Shown: one piece after another, positions 3,816 to 13,993 of the stretch
Layout of the letters: the number at the start of each line of letters is the position of its first letter
Numbering within the stretch: the first letter of the stretch is position 1
Origin: a virus
Virus record (IMG/VR): IMGVR_UViG_3300045918_000488
Location: 1 to 26,997 of that record
Strand: one strand, 5' to 3'
Length of the DNA: 26,997 bases
The notes under the pieces: model-generated
The model's input: the letters and a program-made list of their open reading frames with translations, nothing else
The model's database searches: none
Told to the model about the DNA's origin: nothing
Made by a program: the position numbers and the translations under genes

Positions 3816-4049
3816 TTACGCGGCCTCCCGAATCAACTCAGGCCATATCGATGGCCAGTCATCACGCAGATCCTGGCGCAATACTTTCAGACTAGATTCC
3901 CGCTCGATCGCCACACAGATCGCCGGACCAAGAAATTTTCCTTGGCTGGCCGCCTTTCTTGCGTACCCCTCAGTGGTCCCGCATCGGGTAAAAAACGCCC
4001 TTCTGTCTTCGGGGCTGAGTGGTTTTATGAATGCGAGCAATTTGTCCAT
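3816..4049 (-). CDS. Cro-like / YdaS-type helix-turn-helix regulator
   Basis: The product is 77 residues from ATG 4049 (MDKLLAFIKPLSPEDRRAFFTRCGTT...). The pattern PEDRRAFFTRCGTTEGYARKAASQGKFLGPAICVAIERES is a short Cro/YdaS-type HTH, in which the second helix ends in an L-GPAICVAIE-like stretch. It is the first gene of the leftward operon and is divergent from the CI-like repressor, with three operators between them, so it fills the Cro role. An upstream in-frame GTG at 4058 exists but lies inside the promoter. The likely -10 box ends only 7 nt before this ATG, which suggests a leaderless message. Confidence 0.75.
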   Translation of the reverse strand: MDKLLAFIKPLSPEDRRAFFTRCGTTEGYARKAASQGKFLGPAICVAIERESSLKVLRQDLRDDWPSIWPELIREAA

Positions 4050-4056
4050 GCTGCGC

Positions 4057-4085
4057 ACATTACCAAACGGTAAATATTAAATCAA
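4057..4085 (-). promoter_or_regulatory. Leftward early promoter (cro promoter)
   Basis: On the minus strand TTGATT (4085-4080) and TAATGT (4062-4057) are separated by 17 bp. The first operator (4060-4073) covers the -10 side. The same -10 and operator block, with 23 of 24 bases identical, occurs at the rightward promoter at 5314-5343. That duplication is the main support for the assignment. Confidence 0.55.
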
Positions 4086-4114
4086 TACCATTTGGTGAAT
4101 TTACTTAAAGGTAA
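4060..4114. promoter_or_regulatory. Three repressor operators between cro-like and cI-like genes
   Basis: Three sites of the form TTACC-N4-GGTAA are visible: TTACCAAACGGTAA at 4060-4073, ATACCATTTGGTGA at 4085-4098 (centre ACC-N4-GGT exact), and TTACTTAAAGGTAA at 4101-4114 (one mismatch). They fill the divergent intergenic region as lambda OR does. The binding protein is presumably the CI-like repressor, with the Cro-like protein competing. The motif recurs twice at 5301-5340. Confidence 0.8.
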
Positions 4115-4133
4115 TCCGTGGGAGAATCGCAAG

Positions 4134-4460
4134 ATGGATATCGTTGCCAATAGAAGACTCAAGCTGCAGCACCTGATCAACATCAAGTTTGGCGGATCAC
4201 AGGCCGCGTTTGCGACCAAAACCGAAATCAACCAAGGAGAGCTGTCCGGACTACTGCGCAATAAATCGTTTGGAGAAAAGAAGGCCAGGAAGATCGAGCA
4301 GATCGTCGGGCTCCCTTCCGGCTATCTAGATTCCCCAATCGGAGAAGATACCGACGCCGTTAAAGTTGAGCTGGAAGACATCTATCATCAGCTGCCCGAG
4401 AACATGCAGCGGCTAGTACTTGAGCAAGCGCGGGCGCTATACAACGCTGTGAAAAAATGA
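4134..4460 (+). CDS. CI-like repressor, short form without protease domain
   Basis: The product is 108 residues. ATG 4134 follows GGGAG at 4120-4124; an upstream in-frame ATG at 4092 would lie inside the operators. Residues about 5-65 form an XRE-type helix-turn-helix domain (LKLQHLINIKFGGSQAAFATKTEINQGELSGLLRNKSFGEKKARKIEQIVGLP). The rest is a short helical tail (VELEDIYHQLPENMQRLVLEQARALYNAV), probably for dimerisation. The LexA/S24 peptidase part and its Ser/Lys dyad are missing, so classical RecA-driven self-cleavage is not expected. It faces the Cro-like gene across three operators, as expected for the lysogeny repressor. This family fold is also used by many small regulators, but the context makes repressor the best call. 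Confidence 0.8.
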   Translation: MDIVANRRLKLQHLINIKFGGSQAAFATKTEINQGELSGLLRNKSFGEKKARKIEQIVGLPSGYLDSPIGEDTDAVKVELEDIYHQLPENMQRLVLEQARALYNAVKK

Positions 4461-4544
4461 TGAACACCCCTCTCTCACGCCCAATAGGCGCTGAGATCAA
4501 AGGGGGAAAATTCGGGACGCAAATCCTGACACAGGAGGAAAGGG

Positions 4545-4565
4545 GGCCATATATGCCAAATGGCC
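4545..4565. promoter_or_regulatory. Inverted repeat before BRCT gene
   Basis: GGCCA (4545-4549) and TGGCC (4561-4565) form a short palindrome around ATATATGCC. An AT-rich stretch (TATATACACAATTATTCC) follows and leads to the ribosome binding site of the BRCT gene. It may be a promoter or operator for that gene, but no clear -35/-10 pair can be fixed. The CI-operator motif is absent here. Confidence 0.3.
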
Positions 4566-4606
4566 TATATACACAATTATTCCTTTATTTTTGAAGGGGA
4601 ATTTAT

Positions 4607-5221
4607 ATGAGTATTGGAAGGGTCATGTCCAGTCACGCGCATCATCTGCGCAAGTCGTGCGAGGCATTGCTGGGCATCTGCACCGGAATCATCGCCGATG
4701 ACACATTGAACGAACGCGAAGTCAAATTCCTAAATCTATGGCTTCTGGACAATCAGGATATTTCCACCGTTTGGCCTGGCGAAATTCTTGCCAAACGTAT
4801 CAATGAAGTTCTTTCCGACGGTATCGTCACTCAAGACGAACTTGTTTACCTCAAACAAACTATCGAGGAATTGATAGGCGGCACCCTGCAGCAGACTGGC
4901 GCAATCAGCGGGCTATCAACCCGAATGCCGCTTAATGATGACCTTGCAACCCCTGTCATTTTCAACGACAACGCATTCTGTTTCACCGGCAATTTTCTGT
5001 ACGGTACCCGCGCAGCTTGCGAGCGAGCCATTATGCAGCGCGGCGGCACGGCCTTCGACGGTGTACGTAAAAACCTCGAATATTTGGTCATTGGTACGAT
5101 GATCAACGAAGACTGGGCTAACACTAGCTACGGCCGCAAGATTGAAAAAGCCGTCGAATACCAGAACAAAGGAAGCCCGGTCCTGATTATTAGCGAAGAG
5201 CATTGGGTCAAACACCTATAG
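4607..5221 (+). CDS. TerB-like / BRCT domain protein (lysogeny accessory gene)
   Basis: The product is 204 residues, with GAAGGGGA just before the ATG. Residues about 10-95 are helical and acidic, resembling TerB-type domains (ALLGICTGIIADDTLNEREV... LSDGIVTQDELVYLKQTIEELIGG). Residues about 118-204 form a BRCT domain (NAFCFTGNFLYGTRAACERAI, RGGTAFDGVRKNLEYLVIG, SYGRKIEKAVEYQ, VLIISEEHWVKHL) like that at the end of bacterial NAD-dependent DNA ligase. The gene follows the repressor in the same direction and ends at its own terminator, outside the lytic operons, so it is likely expressed in the lysogen. Roles in DNA-damage sensing or exclusion of other phages are possible, but nothing in the sequence shows which. 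Confidence 0.8.
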   Translation: MSIGRVMSSHAHHLRKSCEALLGICTGIIADDTLNEREVKFLNLWLLDNQDISTVWPGEILAKRINEVLSDGIVTQDELVYLKQTIEELIGGTLQQTGAISGLSTRMPLNDDLATPVIFNDNAFCFTGNFLYGTRAACERAIMQRGGTAFDGVRKNLEYLVIGTMINEDWANTSYGRKIEKAVEYQNKGSPVLIISEEHWVKHL

Positions 5222-5238
5222 CCACATAACCTCCAACC

Positions 5239-5270
5239 AAGCCGCAGGCATACGCTTGCGGCTTTTTTTT
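5239..5270 (+). terminator. Intrinsic terminator after BRCT gene
   Basis: AAGCCGCA (5239-5246) pairs with TGCGGCTT (5257-5264) around a 10-nt loop and is followed by a run of T to 5270. It closes the repressor-side transcription unit and insulates the rightward early promoter that begins about 45 bp later. Confidence 0.85.
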
Positions 5271-5300
5271 CGCCCTACCCTCCCCCTTAAGCATTAATCT

Positions 5301-5343
5301 TTACCATTTGGTATTGACATACGCATTTACCGTTTGGTAATGT
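5301..5343 (+). promoter_or_regulatory. Rightward early promoter with two repressor operators
   Basis: TTGACA (5314-5319) is a perfect -35 box, and TAATGT (5338-5343) follows after 18 bp. Operator TTACCATTTGGTAT (5301-5314) touches the -35, and TTACCGTTTGGTAA (5327-5340) covers the spacer and the -10. Repressor binding should therefore block this promoter. Bases 5325-5348 match the cro promoter block in 23 of 24 positions. It drives the long rightward gene string starting at 5375. Confidence 0.8.
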
Positions 5344-5374
5344 ACGCACCGTACCCACCCAAACGGAGACGGCG

Positions 5375-5551
5375 ATGGACCCAAAACAACAGCAAATCTG
5401 GCACGCAAAGCGGCTTATCTCCGTTGCTGCACGCGCTACAGCGCACGCCGCCAAACGCATCCGCCAAGGCCTTCCCGCTCGCATAGCACTACAACGCAGC
5501 GACCGCCTGATTCGCCTTTCGCATGCCGCCTGGAACGAAGCAATCGCATGA
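5375..5551 (+). CDS. Small basic hypothetical protein (58 aa)
   Basis: The ATG at 5375 has a GGAGA ribosome binding site and follows the early promoter by about 30 bp. The 58-residue product is rich in Ala and Arg and is predicted to be all helical (QIWHAKRLISVAARATAHAA, then RIRQGLPARIALQRSDRLIRLS). It ends in an ATGA overlap with the next gene. This is the first gene of the rightward operon. The family is not recognised; the charge suggests it could touch nucleic acid. Confidence 0.6.
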   Translation: MDPKQQQIWHAKRLISVAARATAHAAKRIRQGLPARIALQRSDRLIRLSHAAWNEAIA

Positions 5552-5748
5552 CACACCCAGTTGAACCGCCGACTTCAGACGAGCTATGGCGCGCTTATCG
5601 CGCGGCGCGACTGCGCTATTCCGGCATCAGCTTCACCAAGGCACTGATGTGCCCGCTGCTTTACAAGTCGCTGACCATCCAAGCGCTGGCAGAACGCAAG
5701 AAACAACAGCAGCACGGCATACCTGCGCCGGTCTTGCAGGCAGCTTAG
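5548..5748 (+). CDS. Small hypothetical protein (66 aa)
   Basis: This 66-residue protein starts in an ATGA overlap. It contains DELWRAYRAARLRYSGISFTKAL and a Gln/Lys-rich segment near the end. No known domain is visible. The coupled position in the rightward early operon supports it being expressed. Confidence 0.6.
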   Translation: MTHPVEPPTSDELWRAYRAARLRYSGISFTKALMCPLLYKSLTIQALAERKKQQQHGIPAPVLQAA

Positions 5749-5760
5749 GGAGACACAACG

Positions 5761-6051
5761 ATGGACGCTTCAAAAAGTGCAGACGTATCCACAGGGGGTT
5801 GCACCACACATCACCAGGCATGCGAATGCCGCGAGCAGCAGATCGCCACGCTCAACAAGGCCGCGCTCGACTGTGCGATTGAGCTGGACTGGATCAAGAA
5901 AGAATGCGGGCTGGATGAAGAAAAGTGTGAGGAGTTGACCTCAATCCTGATGCGCGTATATGCGGCCAGCGCAGCACTCTATCCATCCTTCGAAGACGAC
6001 ATCGAACAGGCACGCCGCCTTGTCGGCCAATACAACGAGGCGCTGCAATGA
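5761..6051 (+). CDS. Small hypothetical protein with His/Cys-rich N-terminus
   Basis: The product is 96 residues, with GGGAG shortly before the ATG. The N-terminus has a possible metal-binding cluster (GGCTTHHQACECREQQ), followed by two acidic helices (ALDCAIELDWIKKECGLDEEKCEELTSIL and DIEQARRLVGQYNEAL) that could pair as a coiled coil. The stop overlaps the next start (ATGA). The function is unknown. Confidence 0.6.
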   Translation: MDASKSADVSTGGCTTHHQACECREQQIATLNKAALDCAIELDWIKKECGLDEEKCEELTSILMRVYAASAALYPSFEDDIEQARRLVGQYNEALQ

Positions 6052-7108: not shown

Positions 7109-8803
7109 ATGAACGCACCTGCACCCGCAGCAGTCCTCCAGCAGAACATCGCGCTGGATCTGCTATTCCCATCCCCCACCAATCCGCGCAAGCGATTTAA
7201 CCAGGTGAAGCTGGAAGAGCTTGCCGCATCGATCAAGACGCAAGGCGTGTTGCAGCCGATCCTGGTGCGCGTTGCACTCCAAGGAGACGGCTTCGGCGCT
7301 GTTGAAAACAAAGGCAATTACGAAGTCATTGCCGGTGAGCGCCGCTATCGCGCATCCAAGCTCGCAGGGCTTACAGAAGTACCGTGCTTCATCCGCAACC
7401 TCACCGACCTGCAGGTGCTACACGCCCAGGTGATTGAGAACTTGCAGCGCGACGATCTGCACCCGATTGAAGAAGCCGAGGGCTACGAGAACCTGATGCA
7501 GCAGATGGATGAAAACGGCAATAAATATACAGCCGACACTATCGCCGCCGAAGTCGGAAAGAGCCGAGGCTATGTGTATGGACGCCTCAAGCTGCTTGAT
7601 CTGTGCCAGGAAGCGCGCGACGCTTTCTTTGATGGCTCGCTGGAGAATTCCACCGGCCAGATCATTGCGCGAATCCCTACGCACAAACTGCAACTCGAAG
7701 CGCTGACCAGAATCGTCGAAGACGATATGTCTTTCCGTCAGGCAAAAGATTGGATACAGCGCCGCTTCATGCTGGATCTCGCGACCGCCCCATTCGAAAT
7801 CAAAGATGCCAGTCTTCTGGAAAGCGCTGGCGCATGCACAGAATGTCTCAAGCGCACCGGCAACCAACCAGAGCTTTTTGACGACGTATCAAGTAAAGAC
7901 ATCTGCACAGATACCGCATGTTTTGCCGAGAAGAAGACTGCGCACATCGCCTTTGCGATCAAATCAGCCGAAACAAACGGCGACGTAGTGATCCGCAAGG
8001 AAGAGGCGAAGAAACTGATTCGCTACCCATACATGATCGAACAAGAACTCAGCAATTCGAATCTGGCGCTGCTGAGTGACGAGATCCCCGACGATGCCGA
8101 AGAGCGAACCTGGGAAGACATGCTAAATGCACACGGCCTGCTCAGCGGAAAAAAGGCCCTGCATAAGACCATCATCGAGAACCCGTTCCAGGAAGAAGTG
8201 CTTGTCGCTATCGATACCAAGGTGGCGATGGCAGCATTGACCAAGGCAGGCTTTCAATTGGCCGAAGAACAAGAACCCAAGCAAAGCCAATCCAACCAAA
8301 AGGCATACGCTGAGCAAGAAAAAAAACGCGCTGCCGAAAAGGCCGCAGAAGAAGCTGAAGCCACCCAGAAAAACGCCTTCCGCAAGCGTCTGTTCGAAGT
8401 AGTGCGCCAAAAGATCGCAGCCGACTTTGCACAAGGAATCGTAGCCGAAGGCCTGTATCGCGTTCTCGCCAATGAGGTATTCACCAACTGCTCCGCCAGC
8501 CTCGACGAAGCCATTGAGCTATTCCAGCACCATTTGCCGGACTTCCAAATCGACGAAGACGCAGAGCCGGATGATGAGGGAGCGCGTTTCATCGACTCAT
8601 TGAGCGCACAGCAGCTCTTCCTGTTCATGCTCGATTGCATCCTGATCAGCGAGCGCTCAGTGCCGTCACGGAATCTCGATACTGAGCCTGTGCGCATGCT
8701 GCAAGCCGCCAAGGCTGTTGGAATCGATGCAGCAGCAGTTGAGCAAGAAGCGATCGAGACCAAGCCCACCAAAAAGACCAGCACCAAGAAAGGAGCCAAG
8801 TAA
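7109..8803 (+). CDS. ParB/Spo0J-family DNA-binding protein (no ParA seen)
   Basis: The product is 564 residues, with AAGGAG before the ATG. Residues about 14-115 form the ParB N-terminal CTP-binding domain: DLLFPSPTNPRKRF, LAASIKTQGVLQPILVR, VIAGERRYRASKLAGL (GERR box), then VIENLQRDDLHPIEEAEGY. A helix-turn-helix follows (YTADTIAAEVGKSRGYVYGRL). The middle carries a Cys cluster (ACTECLKR, DICTDTACF) that may bind zinc, followed by a long charged coiled region (about 385-425) and a Lys-rich tail. Classical ParB proteins load at parS and partner with ParA; no ParA is seen in this window. In phages such proteins may act in replication, partition or regulation. The stop overlaps the start of the first variable protein by one base, so it is co-transcribed with the DGR. 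Confidence 0.85.
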   Translation: MNAPAPAAVLQQNIALDLLFPSPTNPRKRFNQVKLEELAASIKTQGVLQPILVRVALQGDGFGAVENKGNYEVIAGERRYRASKLAGLTEVPCFIRNLTDLQVLHAQVIENLQRDDLHPIEEAEGYENLMQQMDENGNKYTADTIAAEVGKSRGYVYGRLKLLDLCQEARDAFFDGSLENSTGQIIARIPTHKLQLEALTRIVEDDMSFRQAKDWIQRRFMLDLATAPFEIKDASLLESAGACTECLKRTGNQPELFDDVSSKDICTDTACFAEKKTAHIAFAIKSAETNGDVVIRKEEAKKLIRYPYMIEQELSNSNLALLSDEIPDDAEERTWEDMLNAHGLLSGKKALHKTIIENPFQEEVLVAIDTKVAMAALTKAGFQLAEEQEPKQSQSNQKAYAEQEKKRAAEKAAEEAEATQKNAFRKRLFEVVRQKIAADFAQGIVAEGLYRVLANEVFTNCSASLDEAIELFQHHLPDFQIDEDAEPDDEGARFIDSLSAQQLFLFMLDCILISERSVPSRNLDTEPVRMLQAAKAVGIDAAAVEQEAIETKPTKKTSTKKGAK

Positions 8804-9486
8804 TGAAATTTATCACCGTACCCGAAACAACCCTACCGAACGGCCACGTCGAGCCCACCTTCCAGGTCGGCCAATTCCTTTGCAGCAAAGGCGTAGACGG
8901 TAAAGCCGAAGTTACTGCCGAAGGCACGCCCTGGACGAGCATCAAGTTTGCAGATGCCAAGGCCGCATGCGAAGCCATCGGCGCAGCGCTCATCACGGAA
9001 ACGCAGGCACTGGCCATCGCGCACAACGTCGCCGCGCAAGACTGCAACTGGACAAAGGGCAAGGTCGGGGAAGGCAAGCTGTTCCGTGGCCTGCGCAAGG
9101 GCAACGTTAGCAGCGCCCAGTCCGGCACCTACGAACCAACCGACCCCAAGGAACGGCGCTGGCTCACGCTCAGTAATGGCGAGCGCATCTGCGATATCAA
9201 CGGCAACGCATTTTCGTGGATCTTCGACAACGTGCGGGGTGATTCCGGCGGGCTCACCGGCATCATCGAAGCCGACTCCATGTCACTGCAAGCGCCCTTT
9301 CCATCGCAAGAAAATGGTATCGGCTGGCGTCCGGACGGTCGCCGCGATTGGTCCGGCCTTGCGCTCGTCCGAGGCGGCTGCTGGTATTCCGAGTCGTCTG
9401 CGGGCGTCTTCTACCTCAACATCGGCTGGCGTGACCGCGAGCTCGACCTTGTCGGCTTCCGCTGCACCAAGCCAATTGGCCTCTGA
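8803..9486 (+). CDS. DGR variable protein 1 (C-type lectin / FGE-sulfatase-like fold)
   Basis: The product is 227 residues and starts one base into the ParB stop. The C-terminal 130 residues match the formylglycine-generating-enzyme/C-type-lectin-like fold used by DGR targets: RRWLTLSNGERICDINGNAFSW, GWRPDGRRDWSGLALVRGG, WYSESSAGVF, DLVGFRC. Residues about 184-226 are encoded by VR1, which differs from the template only at adenines across 113 nt. Variable codons fall in the loop residues between YLN and VGFR, on the expected ligand-binding face. It has no signal peptide or membrane segment. It is a paralogue of the next variable protein but lacks that protein's N-terminal extension. The ligand is unknown; catalytic FGE activity is not expected. 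Confidence 0.9.
   Translation: MKFITVPETTLPNGHVEPTFQVGQFLCSKGVDGKAEVTAEGTPWTSIKFADAKAACEAIGAALITETQALAIAHNVAAQDCNWTKGKVGEGKLFRGLRKGNVSSAQSGTYEPTDPKERRWLTLSNGERICDINGNAFSWIFDNVRGDSGGLTGIIEADSMSLQAPFPSQENGIGWRPDGRRDWSGLALVRGGCWYSESSAGVFYLNIGWRDRELDLVGFRCTKPIGL
9352..9471 (+). repeat. DGR variable repeat 1 (VR1)
   Basis: This repeat aligns with the template repeat (offset 2039) from TCCGGC at 9352 to GCTG at 9464. It has 15 substitutions, all at template adenines, out of 25 adenines. The last bases CACCAAG (9465-9471) differ from template ACCCAAG at a non-A position, marking the boundary element (IMH versus IMH*). It encodes the last residues of variable protein 1. Confidence 0.95.
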
Positions 9487-9491
9487 TCCCA

Positions 9492-9519
9492 GGTCACGGG
9501 TCGCGGCGTAGCCGTGGCC
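9492..9519 (+). other. DGR hairpin downstream of VR1
   Basis: GGTCACGG (9492-9499) faces CCGTGGCC (9512-9519): an 8-bp stem with one T-G wobble and a 12-nt loop. It starts 20 bp after the VR1 boundary element. The same element follows VR2 with a perfect stem, but no equivalent follows the template. In the Bordetella phage DGR a hairpin or cruciform just after the VR is needed for efficient retrohoming. Target marking is inferred from that precedent. Confidence 0.8.
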
Positions 9520-9550
9520 CCTCATTCAAACCACAATACAGGAGCAACAT

Positions 9551-10462
9551 ATGAACGCGATCAATCAGAAAGAACTCGGCCTCTACGAGAAATTCAAAAT
9601 CACCCGCACCGACGGCAAAGATGCGCCCGGCGGAAAGCATGAAGGCGACAAGTACTTCGTCCTAAATCTCACCACGGACAAACACTCCATTCCCGCACTC
9701 GCCACCTACGCAGACGCCTGCAATGATGAATACCCCGCCCTTGCCGCCGATCTGCGCGCCATGATCGCCGAGAAGTTATCGGCAGCCAGCATCTACATCA
9801 CCGTGCCGCAAGTGACCCTTCCTGATGGCACCGTCGTCGAATCATTCCGCGCCGCGAAGTACTTGTCATCGCGCGCAGCTGGCGGATTCGCCGTATCGAC
9901 AGAAGATGGCAAGCTGTGGGTTGAGATCAACTACGACGACGCACGCAAGGCCTGCCTGCTCTCCGGCGCAACGCTCATCCTGGAATCCCAAGCATTGGCT
10001 ATCGCTTGGGATATCAGCCAGCAGGATATCAACTGGACCGGCGGCAAAGTCGGCTCCGGATCGATCTATCAAGGCATCCATCTTGGCAACGTCAGCGAAG
10101 CGCAGGCAGCCACATTCGAGCCGGAAGAATCCGAGCGCCGCTGGCATCAACTCAGCAACGGCGAACGCATCTATGACTTTGCGGGAAATGCCTACACCTG
10201 GGTATTCGACAACGTGCAAGGTGACATCGATGGCAAGAACAGCAAGATCGCCGCCGATTCAATCTCGCTGACTACAGCACCCTTCCCGTCGCGCGAGAAA
10301 GGCATGGGCTACCGTCCAGACGGAGCGCGTGATTGGTCCGGCGATGCGCTCATCCGAGGCGGCTACTGGTATTCCGAGTCGCGTGCGGGCGTCTTCTGCC
10401 TCGACGTCTGGCATGACTACGAGGTCGACCGTGTCGGCTTCCGCTGCACCAAGGGTCTCTGA
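9551..10462 (+). CDS. DGR variable protein 2 (C-type lectin / FGE-like, with extra N-terminal domain)
   Basis: The product is 303 residues, with CAGGAG before the ATG. Residues 1-80 form an extra N-terminal part (YEKFKITRTDGKDAPGGKH, KYFVLNLTTDKHSIPALATYADAC, YPALAADLRAMI) that is absent from protein 1. It resembles short domains found alone or fused in other phage proteins, but I cannot name it. The rest parallels protein 1 through ITVPQVTLPDG, LILESQALAIAWD, RRWHQLSNGERIYDFAGNAYTW, YRPDGARDWSG and VGFRC. Residues about 263-302 come from VR2. One codon is missing relative to the template and protein 1 (LDVW against LNIGW). The pair probably arose by duplication of gene plus downstream hairpin, followed by domain gain or loss. 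Confidence 0.9.
   Translation: MNAINQKELGLYEKFKITRTDGKDAPGGKHEGDKYFVLNLTTDKHSIPALATYADACNDEYPALAADLRAMIAEKLSAASIYITVPQVTLPDGTVVESFRAAKYLSSRAAGGFAVSTEDGKLWVEINYDDARKACLLSGATLILESQALAIAWDISQQDINWTGGKVGSGSIYQGIHLGNVSEAQAATFEPEESERRWHQLSNGERIYDFAGNAYTWVFDNVQGDIDGKNSKIAADSISLTTAPFPSREKGMGYRPDGARDWSGDALIRGGYWYSESRAGVFCLDVWHDYEVDRVGFRCTKGL
10337..10453 (+). repeat. DGR variable repeat 2 (VR2)
   Basis: This repeat aligns with the template (offset 1054, then 1057 after a gap) from TCCGGC at 10337 to GCTG at 10446. There are 11 or 12 substitutions depending on gap placement, all at template adenines. Template AAC AAC GAC is GAC GTC here, a clean 3-bp deletion. The end CACCAAG matches VR1, not the template. 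Confidence 0.95.
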
Positions 10463-10467
10463 TCACA

Positions 10468-10495
10468 GGTCACGGGTCGCGGCGCAGCCGTGACC
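10468..10495 (+). other. DGR hairpin downstream of VR2
   Basis: GGTCACGG (10468-10475) and CCGTGACC (10488-10495) form a perfect 8-bp stem with a 12-nt loop GTCGCGGCGCAG. It lies 14 bp after the VR2 boundary element, just past the stop codon. It is nearly identical to the VR1 element (two differences in 28 nt) and is absent after the template. Confidence 0.85.
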
Positions 10496-10516
10496 CCATC
10501 CACTAATAGGACGAAC

Positions 10517-11365
10517 ATGAGCGAAACACCAAAACCCACAGCCGAAGAACTGGACCTGCATAATCTCCGTACCTTCAAAGGTATCGAGGTCGGGCTAGGC
10601 GAGGCAGATCCGGTCGCGGCCATCGCACAGAAGCTGGAAGCACAGCACCCAGGTCACCTCATCCTGGTGCAGTCTGGAAACTTCCTGCACGGCTTCGACC
10701 GCACCGCCTACGCGCTATCGATCCTCAAGAGTTACAAACTCAAGCTGATCGGCGCCACCTCCGAGCCGCATCTTCGCGTCGGATTTCCACTCGGCAACTT
10801 CAAGCGCCGCCTTTGGACTGTCGTAGAAGAGTTCGGCATTCCCTACGTGGTCGCACTGGGCACTTTGGCCAGCGGTCGCACAATCTATACGTCTGCACAA
10901 CCCACCGGCAACACTCACGTGCTGGAATCCATATCGCCCAACGTCATCACAGACGTGATCGATGAACTCAAGCAGCGCGGAGAAGTGAACAAAGCCGCCG
11001 CCCAGCAGCTACTAACCAATCCAGACAACACCAGCTTCCAACTCAAGACAAAAGCCAAAGAACTGGACCTGCAACTGCTTCAGGACATCCTCAAGATGCC
11101 GCGCGATCTACGCACCACTTATGGCGAAAACCTGCGCACCTGCATGGGCCGCATCCTGCGCAGCGTCATGGCCTACGGGCTGGAAGACAACAAGCCCCAG
11201 CTGCTCAAGTCCATTTCTGCCGACGTGGACATGCTCAAGCACTACCTCGCACAGGCCCCACGGCTAAACGGACTCAAGCTCTCTTTCGAGCACCGAGCCG
11301 GTTTAGCCGTTGAGCTTGGCAAACTTGTTGGCGGCCTCATTCGCGCACAAGGATCGCAGCCATGA
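10517..11365 (+). CDS. DGR accessory protein: MutS-domain-I-like plus Avd-like region
   Basis: The product is 282 residues from ATG 10517, after TAGGACG. Residues about 40-125 resemble the MutS mismatch-recognition domain I: GHLILVQSGNFLHGFDRTAYAL, KLKLIGATSEP, RVGFPLGNFKRRLWTVVEEFGIPYVVAL. The Phe-x-Glu contact motif of MutS is not intact (FLH is present). Residues about 190-280 form a helical bundle resembling Avd, the DGR accessory protein that binds the reverse transcriptase and template RNA: MPRDLRTTYGENLRTCMGRILRSVMAYGL, DVDMLKHYLAQAPRLNGL, LAVELGKLVGGLI. It sits between VR2 and the template, where avd lies in the Bordetella phage. I recall MutS-like accessory proteins being reported in a minority of DGRs, but the domain calls here are by eye. 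Confidence 0.75.
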   Translation: MSETPKPTAEELDLHNLRTFKGIEVGLGEADPVAAIAQKLEAQHPGHLILVQSGNFLHGFDRTAYALSILKSYKLKLIGATSEPHLRVGFPLGNFKRRLWTVVEEFGIPYVVALGTLASGRTIYTSAQPTGNTHVLESISPNVITDVIDELKQRGEVNKAAAQQLLTNPDNTSFQLKTKAKELDLQLLQDILKMPRDLRTTYGENLRTCMGRILRSVMAYGLEDNKPQLLKSISADVDMLKHYLAQAPRLNGLKLSFEHRAGLAVELGKLVGGLIRAQGSQP

Positions 11366-11390
11366 CCCAACGAAGGGGATTCTCTGAAAA

Positions 11391-11510
11391 TCCGGCAATG
11401 CGCTCATCCGAGGCGGCTACTGGTATTCCGAGTCGAATGCGGGCGTCTTCTACCTCAACAACGACTGGCATGACAACGAGAACGACAATGTCGGCTTCCG
11501 CTGACCCAAG
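11391..11510 (+). repeat. DGR template repeat (TR)
   Basis: The repeat unit 11391-11503, with a diverged tail to 11510, matches both variable repeats at every non-adenine position. Its adenines are clustered in Asn codons (AAC/AAT) when read in the variable-protein frame (SNAGVFYLNNDWHDNENDN), giving maximal diversification. In that frame it ends CGC TGA, so the template itself could not serve as a protein end. It lies between the accessory gene and the reverse transcriptase. No VR-type hairpin follows it. Confidence 0.95.
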
Positions 11511-11640
11511 AAATAAACACCTAGACGCTGGGCATGCCCACGGAAGGCTCACTCTTGGTCGAGAGTCTCCTGGTGCGCAAGCACCAAAAGCACGGCAACA
11601 CGCCCAACCGGAAACCGCCGCGCTGCCTACGGGTTGCGCG

Positions 11641-12636
11641 GTGGAATGCGGTGCAGAATTCTATCGCCTCACCACCCTCGACAATCTATGGAACTGCTGG
11701 GAACACGCTCGCAGCAACAAGGGCGGACGCCTGCGCATCCAGCGCTTTGGCGAAGACCCGCTGGGCCACCTGATCACCATCCAGAAGCGCCTACGCGACC
11801 GGCAATACACCTTCGGCCCCTACAAGACCTTCACCGTACGCGAGAAGAAATTCCGCGACGTAGTCGACGCGCCCATGAAAGACCGCATCGTTCATTGGAT
11901 GCTCTACCAGTACCTGCTGCCGATCTGGCAGCCACGATTCATCCTTGACACCTTCGGCAACCTACCCGGACGCGGCACCCTTGCAGCAATCAATCGCCTG
12001 GCACAGTTCGCCCGCAGCGAGCGCGCCACATGGGTGCTTCAGCTCGACATCAGCAAGTATTTCTACTCGGTCAATCATGCGCTACTTAAGGAACGCATCT
12101 TGCAACACATCGGCGATCACGAGCTGCGCGTCCTACTGATCAGCCTGGTCGATTCATTCCAGACCGACGGCAGCTACGACCACTTATTCGGGCCCGACAC
12201 GCTATATCGGCAGACCACAGCCAAAGGCATGCCCATCGGCAACCTGACATCACAACTCTTCGCCAACATCTTCCTGAATGACTTCGACCACTGGATCAAG
12301 GAAACCCTGCGCGTGAAACGCTACGTCCGCTACGTGGACGATATGGCGATTCTTGGCGAGTCGCGTGAGCAGCTGCAAGAGGTTTGCGCCGCGATCACTA
12401 CCAAGCTGGCCAGCGAAGGCCTGACCATCCACCCGCACAAGATCCGTCTGGCACCGGCCAGCGCAGGTATTCCATTCTTGGGCTCAATCGTTTGGCAGAA
12501 CCATATCAGCATGGGGCGGTATATCCGCGCCCGCTACCACCAGCGCCTGCGCCAACATGAATCTGGCGTGCGCGATCGGAGTGAAGCGCTGAGGTCGTAT
12601 AGGGCGATGCTGGCACACACAGGGGCGACAAGATGA
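11641..12636 (+). CDS. DGR reverse transcriptase
   Basis: The product is about 331 residues if it begins at GTG 11641. The frame is open back to ATG 11362, but that would read through the template repeat in an unrelated frame, so the upstream part is unlikely to be protein. Motifs from 11641: LDNLWNCWEHAR, DAPMKDRIVHW (about 77-86), LQLDISKYFYSV with catalytic Asp136, GMPIGNLTSQLFANI (about 196-210) and YVDD (231-234) with the two Asp. The GN-xx-SQ box in place of the group II intron Q-G-xxx-SP box is diagnostic of DGR enzymes. It makes adenine-mutagenised cDNA from template RNA, which replaces VR sequence. The start has no strong ribosome binding site and is uncertain. It ends in an ATGA overlap with the next gene. 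Confidence 0.93.
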   Translation: MECGAEFYRLTTLDNLWNCWEHARSNKGGRLRIQRFGEDPLGHLITIQKRLRDRQYTFGPYKTFTVREKKFRDVVDAPMKDRIVHWMLYQYLLPIWQPRFILDTFGNLPGRGTLAAINRLAQFARSERATWVLQLDISKYFYSVNHALLKERILQHIGDHELRVLLISLVDSFQTDGSYDHLFGPDTLYRQTTAKGMPIGNLTSQLFANIFLNDFDHWIKETLRVKRYVRYVDDMAILGESREQLQEVCAAITTKLASEGLTIHPHKIRLAPASAGIPFLGSIVWQNHISMGRYIRARYHQRLRQHESGVRDRSEALRSYRAMLAHTGATR

Positions 12637-12998
12637 AAACCCTTGACCTCAAAGAAGCCGCCGCCTTCCTGCATTTACATCCACACACACTGGAAGCAAA
12701 GGCACGCGCAGGAGAGGTGCCAGGCGCGAAGCCCGGAAAATGCTGGGTATTTCTGGAAGTTGACCTTGCAGACTGGCTACGCGCACAATACCGCGCGCCA
12801 AAACAAGAAAAGGGAGAAGAGGTATGTCGCTCTACAAGCGTGGGCGCATCTACTGGTGCGAATGGACGATCAAAGAACTCAGCAGCAAACCAATTAGAGA
12901 AACGACTGGCACGTCCGACCGCCAAGCCGCGCAGGAATACCACGACCGCCGTCGTGCTGAACTTTGGCGGGAAAGCAAGCTCGGCGATGTCCGTGTAG
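12633..12998 (+). CDS. Excisionase-like helix-turn-helix protein
   Basis: The product is 121 residues, starting in an ATGA overlap with the reverse transcriptase. Residues 1-55 form a MerR/Xis-type HTH (LDLKEAAAFLHLHPHTLEAKARAGEVPGAKPGKCWVF, then VDLADWLRAQY), as in phage excisionases and directionality factors. The second half runs 175 bp into the integrase gene in another frame, has a low-complexity Thr/Ala/Arg composition, and may be functionally neutral. Its position directly before the integrase supports a role in excision or control of integration. Confidence 0.7.
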   Translation: MKTLDLKEAAAFLHLHPHTLEAKARAGEVPGAKPGKCWVFLEVDLADWLRAQYRAPKQEKGEEVCRSTSVGASTGANGRSKNSAANQLEKRLARPTAKPRRNTTTAVVLNFGGKASSAMSV

Positions 12999-13993
12999 CA
13001 ACTTGGGATGAAGCTACCCTTGAGTGGGTGGACGAACACGCAATCCACAAGGCCAGCTTCGAGACAGACCGCGTGCGACTGATATGGCTCACTGAACGGT
13101 TGACCGGAAAACCCATCACCACCATCAGCACCGAAGTCATGCTGGAGATCCGCAAGGAATTGCTGATCTCCCGCGCGTCGGCGACTGCGAACCGCTTCCT
13201 CGCCATCATCTCGGCAGTGCTCAACTACGCGCATGCCAAAAGCAAACTTGCCGCCGTACCCAAGATTCCATATCTAGCAGAGCCCAAAGATCGCTTCCGC
13301 TGGATCACTCGCACTGAGGCCAAACTGCTGATCGCCGAACTCCCAGAACACCTCGCAGCAATGACGCGCTTTGCACTAGCCACAGGCCTACGCCGCGCCA
13401 ACGTCACCGGCTTGACATGGCACAACATCGACACGGATCGTAAAGTTGCATGGGTATGGGCAGACGAGGCAAAGGCAGAGAAGGCTATACCTGTGCCGCT
13501 GAATGCGGACGCACTGGCTGTACTCAAGGAGAGATATGAACAGAAAGACAAGAACGGGAAGCCTTGCCGTGATGCGCGCTACGTCTTCACCTTCCGAAAA
13601 CAACCGGTGATTAGAACAACGACGAAGGCATGGGTGAGTGCACTTGAACGCGCCAGCATCGATGCCGGGTTTACTTTTCACGATCTGCGCCACACCTGGG
13701 CGAGCTGGCATGTAATGGGCGGCACACCGCTTGAAGTATTAAGACAGCTGGGAGGATGGGCAGATATGACGATGGTACTGAGATATGCGCACTTGGCACC
13801 AGGCTACATCGCAGGGTATGCCGAGAATGCATCCCTCACGATTTCACCCACACCCCCTCACGTTTTACCCTACAGCAAAGATAATGTTAGTGAGGACTAC
13901 CGCGAAGAGGCTAACAAATTGGGGTGGCTGAACGGGCTCGAACCGTCGACAACTGGAATCACAATCCTAAAACCGCGTAAAAAAGCCGCTTAG
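12824..13993 (+). CDS. int: Tyrosine-family phage integrase
   Basis: The product is 389 residues, with GGGAGAAGAGG before the ATG. The N-terminus (SLYKRGRIYWCEW, REGTTGTSDRQ-like arm-binding start) is followed by a core-binding domain and the catalytic domain. Visible catalytic residues are Arg190 (ATGLRRANVTGL), a likely Lys220 in the beta-hairpin (KAEKAIPVPL), His286 and Arg289 (HDLRHTW), Trp312 (GGWADM) and nucleophile Tyr321 (LRYAHLAPG). It catalyses integration at a tRNA-His gene, judging from the 48-nt tRNA fragment that forms its own 3' end (residues about 367-381, GWLNGLEPSTTGITI). In the integrated state the last residues (LKPRKKAA) would be replaced by others encoded beyond the crossover. 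Confidence 0.95.
   Translation: MSLYKRGRIYWCEWTIKELSSKPIRETTGTSDRQAAQEYHDRRRAELWRESKLGDVRVATWDEATLEWVDEHAIHKASFETDRVRLIWLTERLTGKPITTISTEVMLEIRKELLISRASATANRFLAIISAVLNYAHAKSKLAAVPKIPYLAEPKDRFRWITRTEAKLLIAELPEHLAAMTRFALATGLRRANVTGLTWHNIDTDRKVAWVWADEAKAEKAIPVPLNADALAVLKERYEQKDKNGKPCRDARYVFTFRKQPVIRTTTKAWVSALERASIDAGFTFHDLRHTWASWHVMGGTPLEVLRQLGGWADMTMVLRYAHLAPGYIAGYAENASLTISPTPPHVLPYSKDNVSEDYREEANKLGWLNGLEPSTTGITILKPRKKAA
13920..13967 (-). other. attP core: 3' part of a tRNA-His gene
   Basis: The minus strand carries tRNA positions 29-76: GGA, anticodon loop TTGTGAT (anticodon GTG, His), TCCAG, TTGTC, T-arm GACGG-TTCGAGC-CCGTT, acceptor strand CAGCCAC, discriminator C73 and CCA. C73 is the tRNA-His hallmark. 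The 5' half is absent: the sequence upstream does not form the anticodon stem. The fragment would restore the host tRNA after integration. It is not a functional tRNA gene here. Confidence 0.85.

Follow-up and report, generated by a model that had tools for sequence, protein, structure and literature searches.

A phage-borne diversity-generating retroelement with a MutS domain I-Avd accessory protein and a template repeat inside the open frame of its reverse transcriptase

The diversity-generating retroelement (DGR) of Bordetella phage BPP-1 (mtd-avd-TR-brt; AY029185), whose mechanism is taken here from PMC12875486, shares its plan with the locus described in this study. In both, a target is followed by an accessory gene, a template repeat (TR) and a reverse transcriptase (RT) gene, the differences between variable repeat (VR) and TR are adenine-directed, and an initiation of mutagenic homing (IMH) sequence is paired with a variant, IMH*. 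Both also have a stem-loop downstream of the VR, a structured spacer between TR and RT, an Avd protomer fold and a target of the C-type lectin (CLec) fold. The present locus is carried by IMG/VR record IMGVR_UViG_3300045918_000488, a linear virus record of 27 kb (26,997 nucleotides) which was analysed in its entirety and is referred to as the window. It differs from BPP-1 in its RT (31% identical), in having two targets (a count that covers the 27-kb record only), in the fusion of Avd to MutS domain I, in a spacer RNA whose covariance model (R1) does not match BPP-1, and in an RT that is seemingly translated through the TR.

In structural group 3 of DiGReF, the TR overlaps the annotated RT open reading frame (ORF) (PMC3521204), and the window likewise has its TR within the RT open frame (ATG 11362 to 12636). 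Group 3 is an annotation class, whereas here the ATGA start is conserved, the frame is open in 56/56 loci, and the leader is also found fused to genes other than the RT. The DiGReF authors considered the RT and the TR RNA to be separately transcribed (PMC3521204), and Roux et al. found the TR to be intergenic in most cases. MutS-like (MSL) DGR accessories with PF01624 are already known (PMC10053308, citing its reference 12, presumably Wu et al. 2018); the accessory protein of the window shares their MutS domain I homology, and profile and fold identify its C-terminal part as an Avd protomer. The core of the element is a DGR of a well-known kind; its variant features are the MutS_I-Avd accessory and an open leader that bears the template. 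No published description of a translated template-bearing leader together with a MutS_I-Avd accessory was found in a comparison that left the primary MSL paper outside, and no published account of conserved translation through the TR was found.

The repeats and the two target genes of the window are as follows.
11391 to 11503, plus strand: TR, placed by realignment with both VRs.
9352 to 9464, plus strand: VR1, with 15 of 15 differences from the TR at template adenines.
10337 to 10446, plus strand: VR2, with 11 of 11 substitutions at template adenines and one 3-nt in-frame gap.
8803 to 9486, plus strand: target protein 1, a variable protein of 227 aa (ORF; phrog_2889, 6e-30).
9551 to 10462, plus strand: target protein 2, 303 aa, which has an additional domain at its N-terminus (phrog_9572, 6e-44).

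An earlier reading of the sequence alone (the original prediction) had placed the three repeats at these positions and had counted 15 differences for VR1 and 11-12 substitutions for VR2, all at template adenines, and the realignment that it had proposed bore out positions and counts alike, with no differences at C, G or T inside the repeat. The alignment of TR and VR1 is free of gaps, and the 15 adenines are replaced by C, G and T five times each. As the TR holds 25 adenines in 113 bases, 15 random positions would all be adenines with P = 1.8e-12. For VR2, 11 substitutions were counted (12 under a poorer gap placement), all at adenines (P = 3e-9). The statement that no non-adenine position changes was correct for substitutions within the repeat and passed over a length change: VR2 is one AAC codon shorter than the TR, by an in-frame 3-nt gap in an AACAAC run at about 11456-11462. 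This indel is not explained by adenine mutagenesis alone, and RT slippage is a candidate; a one-codon difference in length between VR and TR was also seen in VR2 of a related element (L020). As had been predicted, both targets carry the adenine-only pattern of a diversifying DGR. The locus is almost certainly a complete DGR with a MutS_I-Avd accessory.

The first mismatch past the repeat is in TGACCC of the TR (11502-11507), which reads TGCACC in both VRs, and this switch is the IMH*/IMH boundary. Related elements were found in IMG/VR contigs and in bacterial genomes (Gallionella, Aromatoleum, Thauera, Duganella, Pseudoduganella, Paracandidimonas, Methylotenera and a metagenome-assembled genome of Lysobacteraceae), with accessory proteins 46-80% and RTs 62-80% identical, and with one to three VRs in most. 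Across 64 VR/TR pairs of this clade, 1012 of 1021 substitutions were at template adenines, and the TGCACC/TGACCC pair was present in 64/64. The TGACCC of IMH* gives the TR an in-frame TGA where the targets encode Cys. As IMH* differs from IMH in every VR, the copied tract must stop at or before TGACCC. A codon-position test over the clade indicated that selection on the TR tracks the target frame and not the RT frame.

The RT domain was assigned with profile and structure-sequence matches, in a tree-free manner.
11641 to 12633, plus strand: RT domain part (RVT_1, 8e-26; phrog_1423, 1e-99; BPP-1 bRT 8ub7_A, 1.6e-32).
The motifs GMPIGNLTSQ and YVRYVDD are intact, confirming the DGR box and YVDD reported earlier. 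Were the RT instead that of a retron or group II intron, next to lectin genes that happened to be duplicated in tandem, a best match outside the DGR RTs would be in keeping, and the top NCBIfam RT model is indeed that of a group II RT (1.8e-38, under its own cut-off). Against this, BPP-1 bRT is the best match among solved structures, ahead of the other solved RTs by 18 orders of magnitude (group II intron RT, 4e-14), and the phrog_1423 match and the adenine-only TR/VR pattern also oppose it. The retron or group II identity was rejected as having a negligible probability, the RT lying far nearer to DGR RTs than to either of those groups. Judged from its sequence, the RT is of the DGR type.

The TR copy had been described as non-coding, which did not hold: the TR sits within an ORF that is open from the ATG at 11362 to the RT stop.
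11362 to 12636, plus strand: ORF through TR and spacer into the RT, its ATG overlapping the accessory stop codon (ATGA).
This leader was followed in 56 distinct loci of the clade, 47 with the leader fused to the RT and 9 with it fused to a cargo gene. The ATGA at the accessory stop and a leader frame open over 270 nt were present in 56/56, and the other two forward frames were open throughout in 0/56. A Shine-Dalgarno-like sequence lies upstream of the leader ATG in 53/56 loci, compared with 11% of random windows. The distance from accessory stop to RT was 263-287, or 515/524 with an insert, and was constant modulo 3 across the 47 loci in spite of these length changes. No ATG, GTG or TTG occurs between IMH* and the RT domain in 21 of the 47 RT-fused loci. 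In the nine cargo loci an inserted gene sits precisely at the junction of spacer and RT, with the leader in frame with it in every case, and the RT begins near the stop codon of the cargo gene. The cargo genes are listed by locus.
L024 and L098: D12 methyltransferase.
L026: N6_N4 methylase.
L054: Dam.
L033: PAPS-reductase-like protein.
L093, with a near-copy in L095: H-NS-tail protein.
L012 and L027: proteins without family assignment.
Judged by codons, the start codon is missing at the leader-cargo junction of L012 and of L098.

From these sequence comparisons, translation of the RT probably begins where the leader ATG overlaps the accessory stop, and then crosses the TR and the spacer. The same locus could be read as an ordinary DGR whose TR lies in a spacer that is non-coding; the RT would then have a local start, GTG 11641 or another, and the open frame would be a by-product of composition. 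Several points weigh in favour of that reading and against translation through the TR. GTG 11641 is a possible start of the RT's own and the sole in-frame start between IMH* and the domain in the window; the spacer codons lack third-position bias, the frame being kept open and the peptide not visibly selected; and a Markov-shuffled spacer gives an open frame in about 39% of cases. In this GC-rich DNA, open reverse frames are common as well (one of them in 31/56 loci), the brt frame of BPP-1 is open through its TR despite an ATG of its own, so that openness alone is weak evidence, and the clade loci are related, so that their counts are not independent events. What a composition by-product has to contend with is the universal overlap of ATG and accessory stop, the Shine-Dalgarno-like motif, the loci without any start codon before the RT domain, the equal phase in 47/47 loci and the nine cargo ORFs in the leader frame, two of them with junctions lacking a start. 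An ordinary local start of the RT is thus considered unlikely, and translation from the accessory-stop ATG is preferred.

Besides brt of BPP-1 (L110), most divergent elements in which a TR could be located have an RT frame that stays open across it, among them L061, L070, L071, L076, L082, L085, L086, L089 and L090; in L085, no start codon follows the TR. Translation through the TR may extend beyond this clade. As the nine cargo fusions demonstrate, genes other than the RT are tolerated behind the leader, which is relevant to engineering and to the annotation of RT start sites. Several cargo genes are DNA adenine methyltransferases; Dam-type methylation, like MutS, is part of mismatch repair, a coincidence that may or may not be due to chance.

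The 3' end of the TR and the spacer form a predicted structured RNA.
11490 to 11648, plus strand: conserved structured RNA comprising the TR 3' end with IMH* and the spacer (covariation; covariance model R1, 169 bits).
The structure has 38 pairs in 8 helices, with 97.4% of cells paired and compensatory changes at 20 pairs. Its covariation score was reached by 0/500 shuffles, and slid versions scored far lower. With model R1, the RNA was recovered at 118-167 bits in clade members that had not been used to train it. BPP-1 and the DGRs whose RTs are 30-35% identical gave no match, and a similar TR-spacer pairing was spotted by eye only. No match to the region was found in Rfam, and in a sample of 300 genomes from the order of Aromatoleum the RNA was detected only in a genome already known to carry it, under strict filters that may miss some. 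By comparative sequence analysis, this strongly covarying spacer RNA is found across the betaproteobacterial prophage clade. In the predicted fold the TGACC of IMH* pairs with an almost invariant GGTCG of the spacer; as these pairs are invariant, covariation speaks neither for nor against that helix. If the predicted helix is right, IMH* would need to differ from IMH because it pairs with the spacer.

Between VR2 and the TR lies an accessory gene that was absent from the original prediction.
10517 to 11365, plus strand: accessory gene of the MSL class, 282 aa, a fusion of MutS domain I and an Avd protomer, from profiles and fold.
10598 to 10909, plus strand: MutS domain I part, residues 28-131 (VIA-align Z of about 12 to MutS/MSH3).
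11024 to 11359, plus strand: Avd part, residues 170-281 (VIA-align to BPP-1 Avd 8ub8_C).
The C-terminal part matches Avd models (bAvd, 1.6e-4; NCBIfam DivGenRetAVD, 6e-8; phrog Avd, 2.5e-8). Among the aligned accessory relatives, bAvd (Pfam) was matched by 31/31 and MutS_I (PF01624) by 10/31, at best with 3.6e-4. In the predicted structure, residues 28-131 had MutS as their top Foldseek matches, and residues 170-281 superposed on 8ub8_C with Z 15.6 and an rmsd of 1.8 A over 110 residues. Model confidence was moderate (pLDDT 75, pTM 0.48), and the relative placement of the domains is unreliable. A search of the accessory profile against PDB sequences gave chance-level matches only, and hhalign of the shallow profile against single MutS and Avd sequences gave low-probability alignments; since these searches were uninformative, the homology rests on the Pfam and NCBIfam models and the fold comparison. 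On those profiles and the predicted fold, the accessory belongs to the MSL class by its MutS domain I homology. At the F-x-E motif of MutS the aligned accessories have F/W-x-H (Q in a few), which retains the stacking aromatic and loses the Glu. The mismatch-reading F-x-E of mismatch-repair MutS was thus absent from the aligned accessory MutS_I parts, a result that concerns MutS-style mismatch reading and not membership of the MSL class. No accessory homologues were found among isolated phages. In one relative (L041), the accessory and a TR-like repeat are tandemly duplicated (3828-4815 and 4898-5879), and the TR ahead of the RT is the second copy.

The element would be a prophage-borne DGR of a betaproteobacterial lineage, acting by adenine-mutagenic retrohoming. 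The overlapping genes suggest a single transcript running from the target genes through the accessory, TR and spacer to the RT. By analogy with BPP-1, the RT and the Avd part of the accessory probably bind the TR 3' end and spacer RNA and prime from it. The VR/TR pattern indicates that the cDNA would be mutated opposite template adenines, and the mutated cDNA might then replace the VR in either target, guided by the IMH and the stem-loop, both of which are present here. Copying past IMH* would carry the TGA stop into the target. One RNA would serve as message and template, with the RT made by translation from the accessory-stop ATG through TR and spacer, and a translated template is a simple idea for balancing RT dose and template use.

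The integration of cDNA is incompletely understood, and mutS has been deleted to preserve the substitutions (PMC12875486). For DGRs it is still open how mutated cDNA withstands mismatch repair and is brought into the target, and a MutS mismatch domain fused to an Avd protein makes that question directly testable. The favoured role of the MutS domain, put forward tentatively, is that it might bind the mismatched cDNA-target heteroduplex and protect or direct it. A combined proposal, in which RNA bound by RT and accessory could not be translated and translated RNA could not act as template, giving an RT-limiting switch, while MutS_I (F-x-H) would shield the heteroduplex from mismatch repair, is a little more doubtful still.

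Two near-identical viral contigs of the clade bear on recent activity. L029 and L035 have RT DNA that is 99.8% identical and identical TRs, and their VRs differ at 15 + 15 positions, all of them template adenines; the clade has therefore been recently active, and the pair is a ready natural experiment for DGR activity. The support for mutagenic retrohoming dependent on RT and TR is comparative and comes from this pair, which is consistent with it. The DGR of the window might alternatively be decayed or inactive, retained by chance and with old VR differences. The 3-nt difference in VR2 could be taken in that sense, as the TR may have changed length since VR2 was last replaced in full, and the window is a single sequence that gives no population view. 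Its ORFs, RT motifs, RNA and stem-loops are all intact, however, and with relatives active so recently a decayed element seems improbable; an active DGR is the preferred reading. A second, divergent RT (30% identical) was noted on the opposite strand of another related contig (L009:11166-11936, minus strand).

The two targets were correctly predicted as paralogues of the CLec and formylglycine-generating enzyme (FGE) type. They are 56% identical across their shared domain, each has a VR at the 3' end of its gene, and, besides the phrog matches given above, the AlphaFold model of target 2 (pLDDT 80) matches FGEs, the DGR variable protein TaqVP and Mtd. On this modelling, both targets have the predicted FGE/CLec fold. 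A GC-rich stem-loop, located with a mismatch-tolerant hairpin search, follows each VR and is absent behind the TR.
9498 to 9520, plus strand: stem-loop 3' of VR1.
10474 to 10496, plus strand: stem-loop 3' of VR2.
Most VR hairpins contain G-T pairs or single mismatches and were missed by an exact-stem inverted-repeat search, for which the tolerant search was substituted. In 41 clade elements, a stem-loop above the 95% level of shuffles followed 68/70 VRs, compared with 2/41 TRs.

The surroundings identify the source element as a fragment of a contractile-tailed temperate phage. A contractile tail module (sheath, tape measure, baseplate and tail fibre) occupies the minus strand, and the plus strand carries, in order, ParB, the targets, accessory, TR, RT, an excisionase-like gene and an integrase, several of which overlap head to tail.
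7109 to 8803, plus strand: ParB-family gene (ParB_N, 5e-27; HTH_ParB, 7e-18), a neighbour possibly of the same operon, its TAA stop overlapping the ATG of target 1.
12633 to 12998, plus strand: excisionase-like helix-turn-helix gene (HTH_17, 9e-11; phrog_1840, excisionase), its ATG overlapping the RT stop.
12824 to 13993, plus strand: tyrosine integrase, a neighbour (Phage_integrase, 2e-29; phrog_1, 5e-57).
In this layout the targets lie on the early/integration side, away from the tail fibre gene. They may act as virion receptor-binding proteins or as lysogen proteins. ParB-like genes (35-50% identical) occur near the DGR RT in the window and in several unrelated prophage DGRs (L071, L073, L074, L076, L085, L090, L092, L097, L099 and L107), in a tally made free of any background rate. 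A further phage protein of the window (4607-5221, plus strand) belongs to phrog_3989 and shows, at its C-terminus, a BRCT-like match to models of DNA ligase and of DNA polymerase III epsilon.

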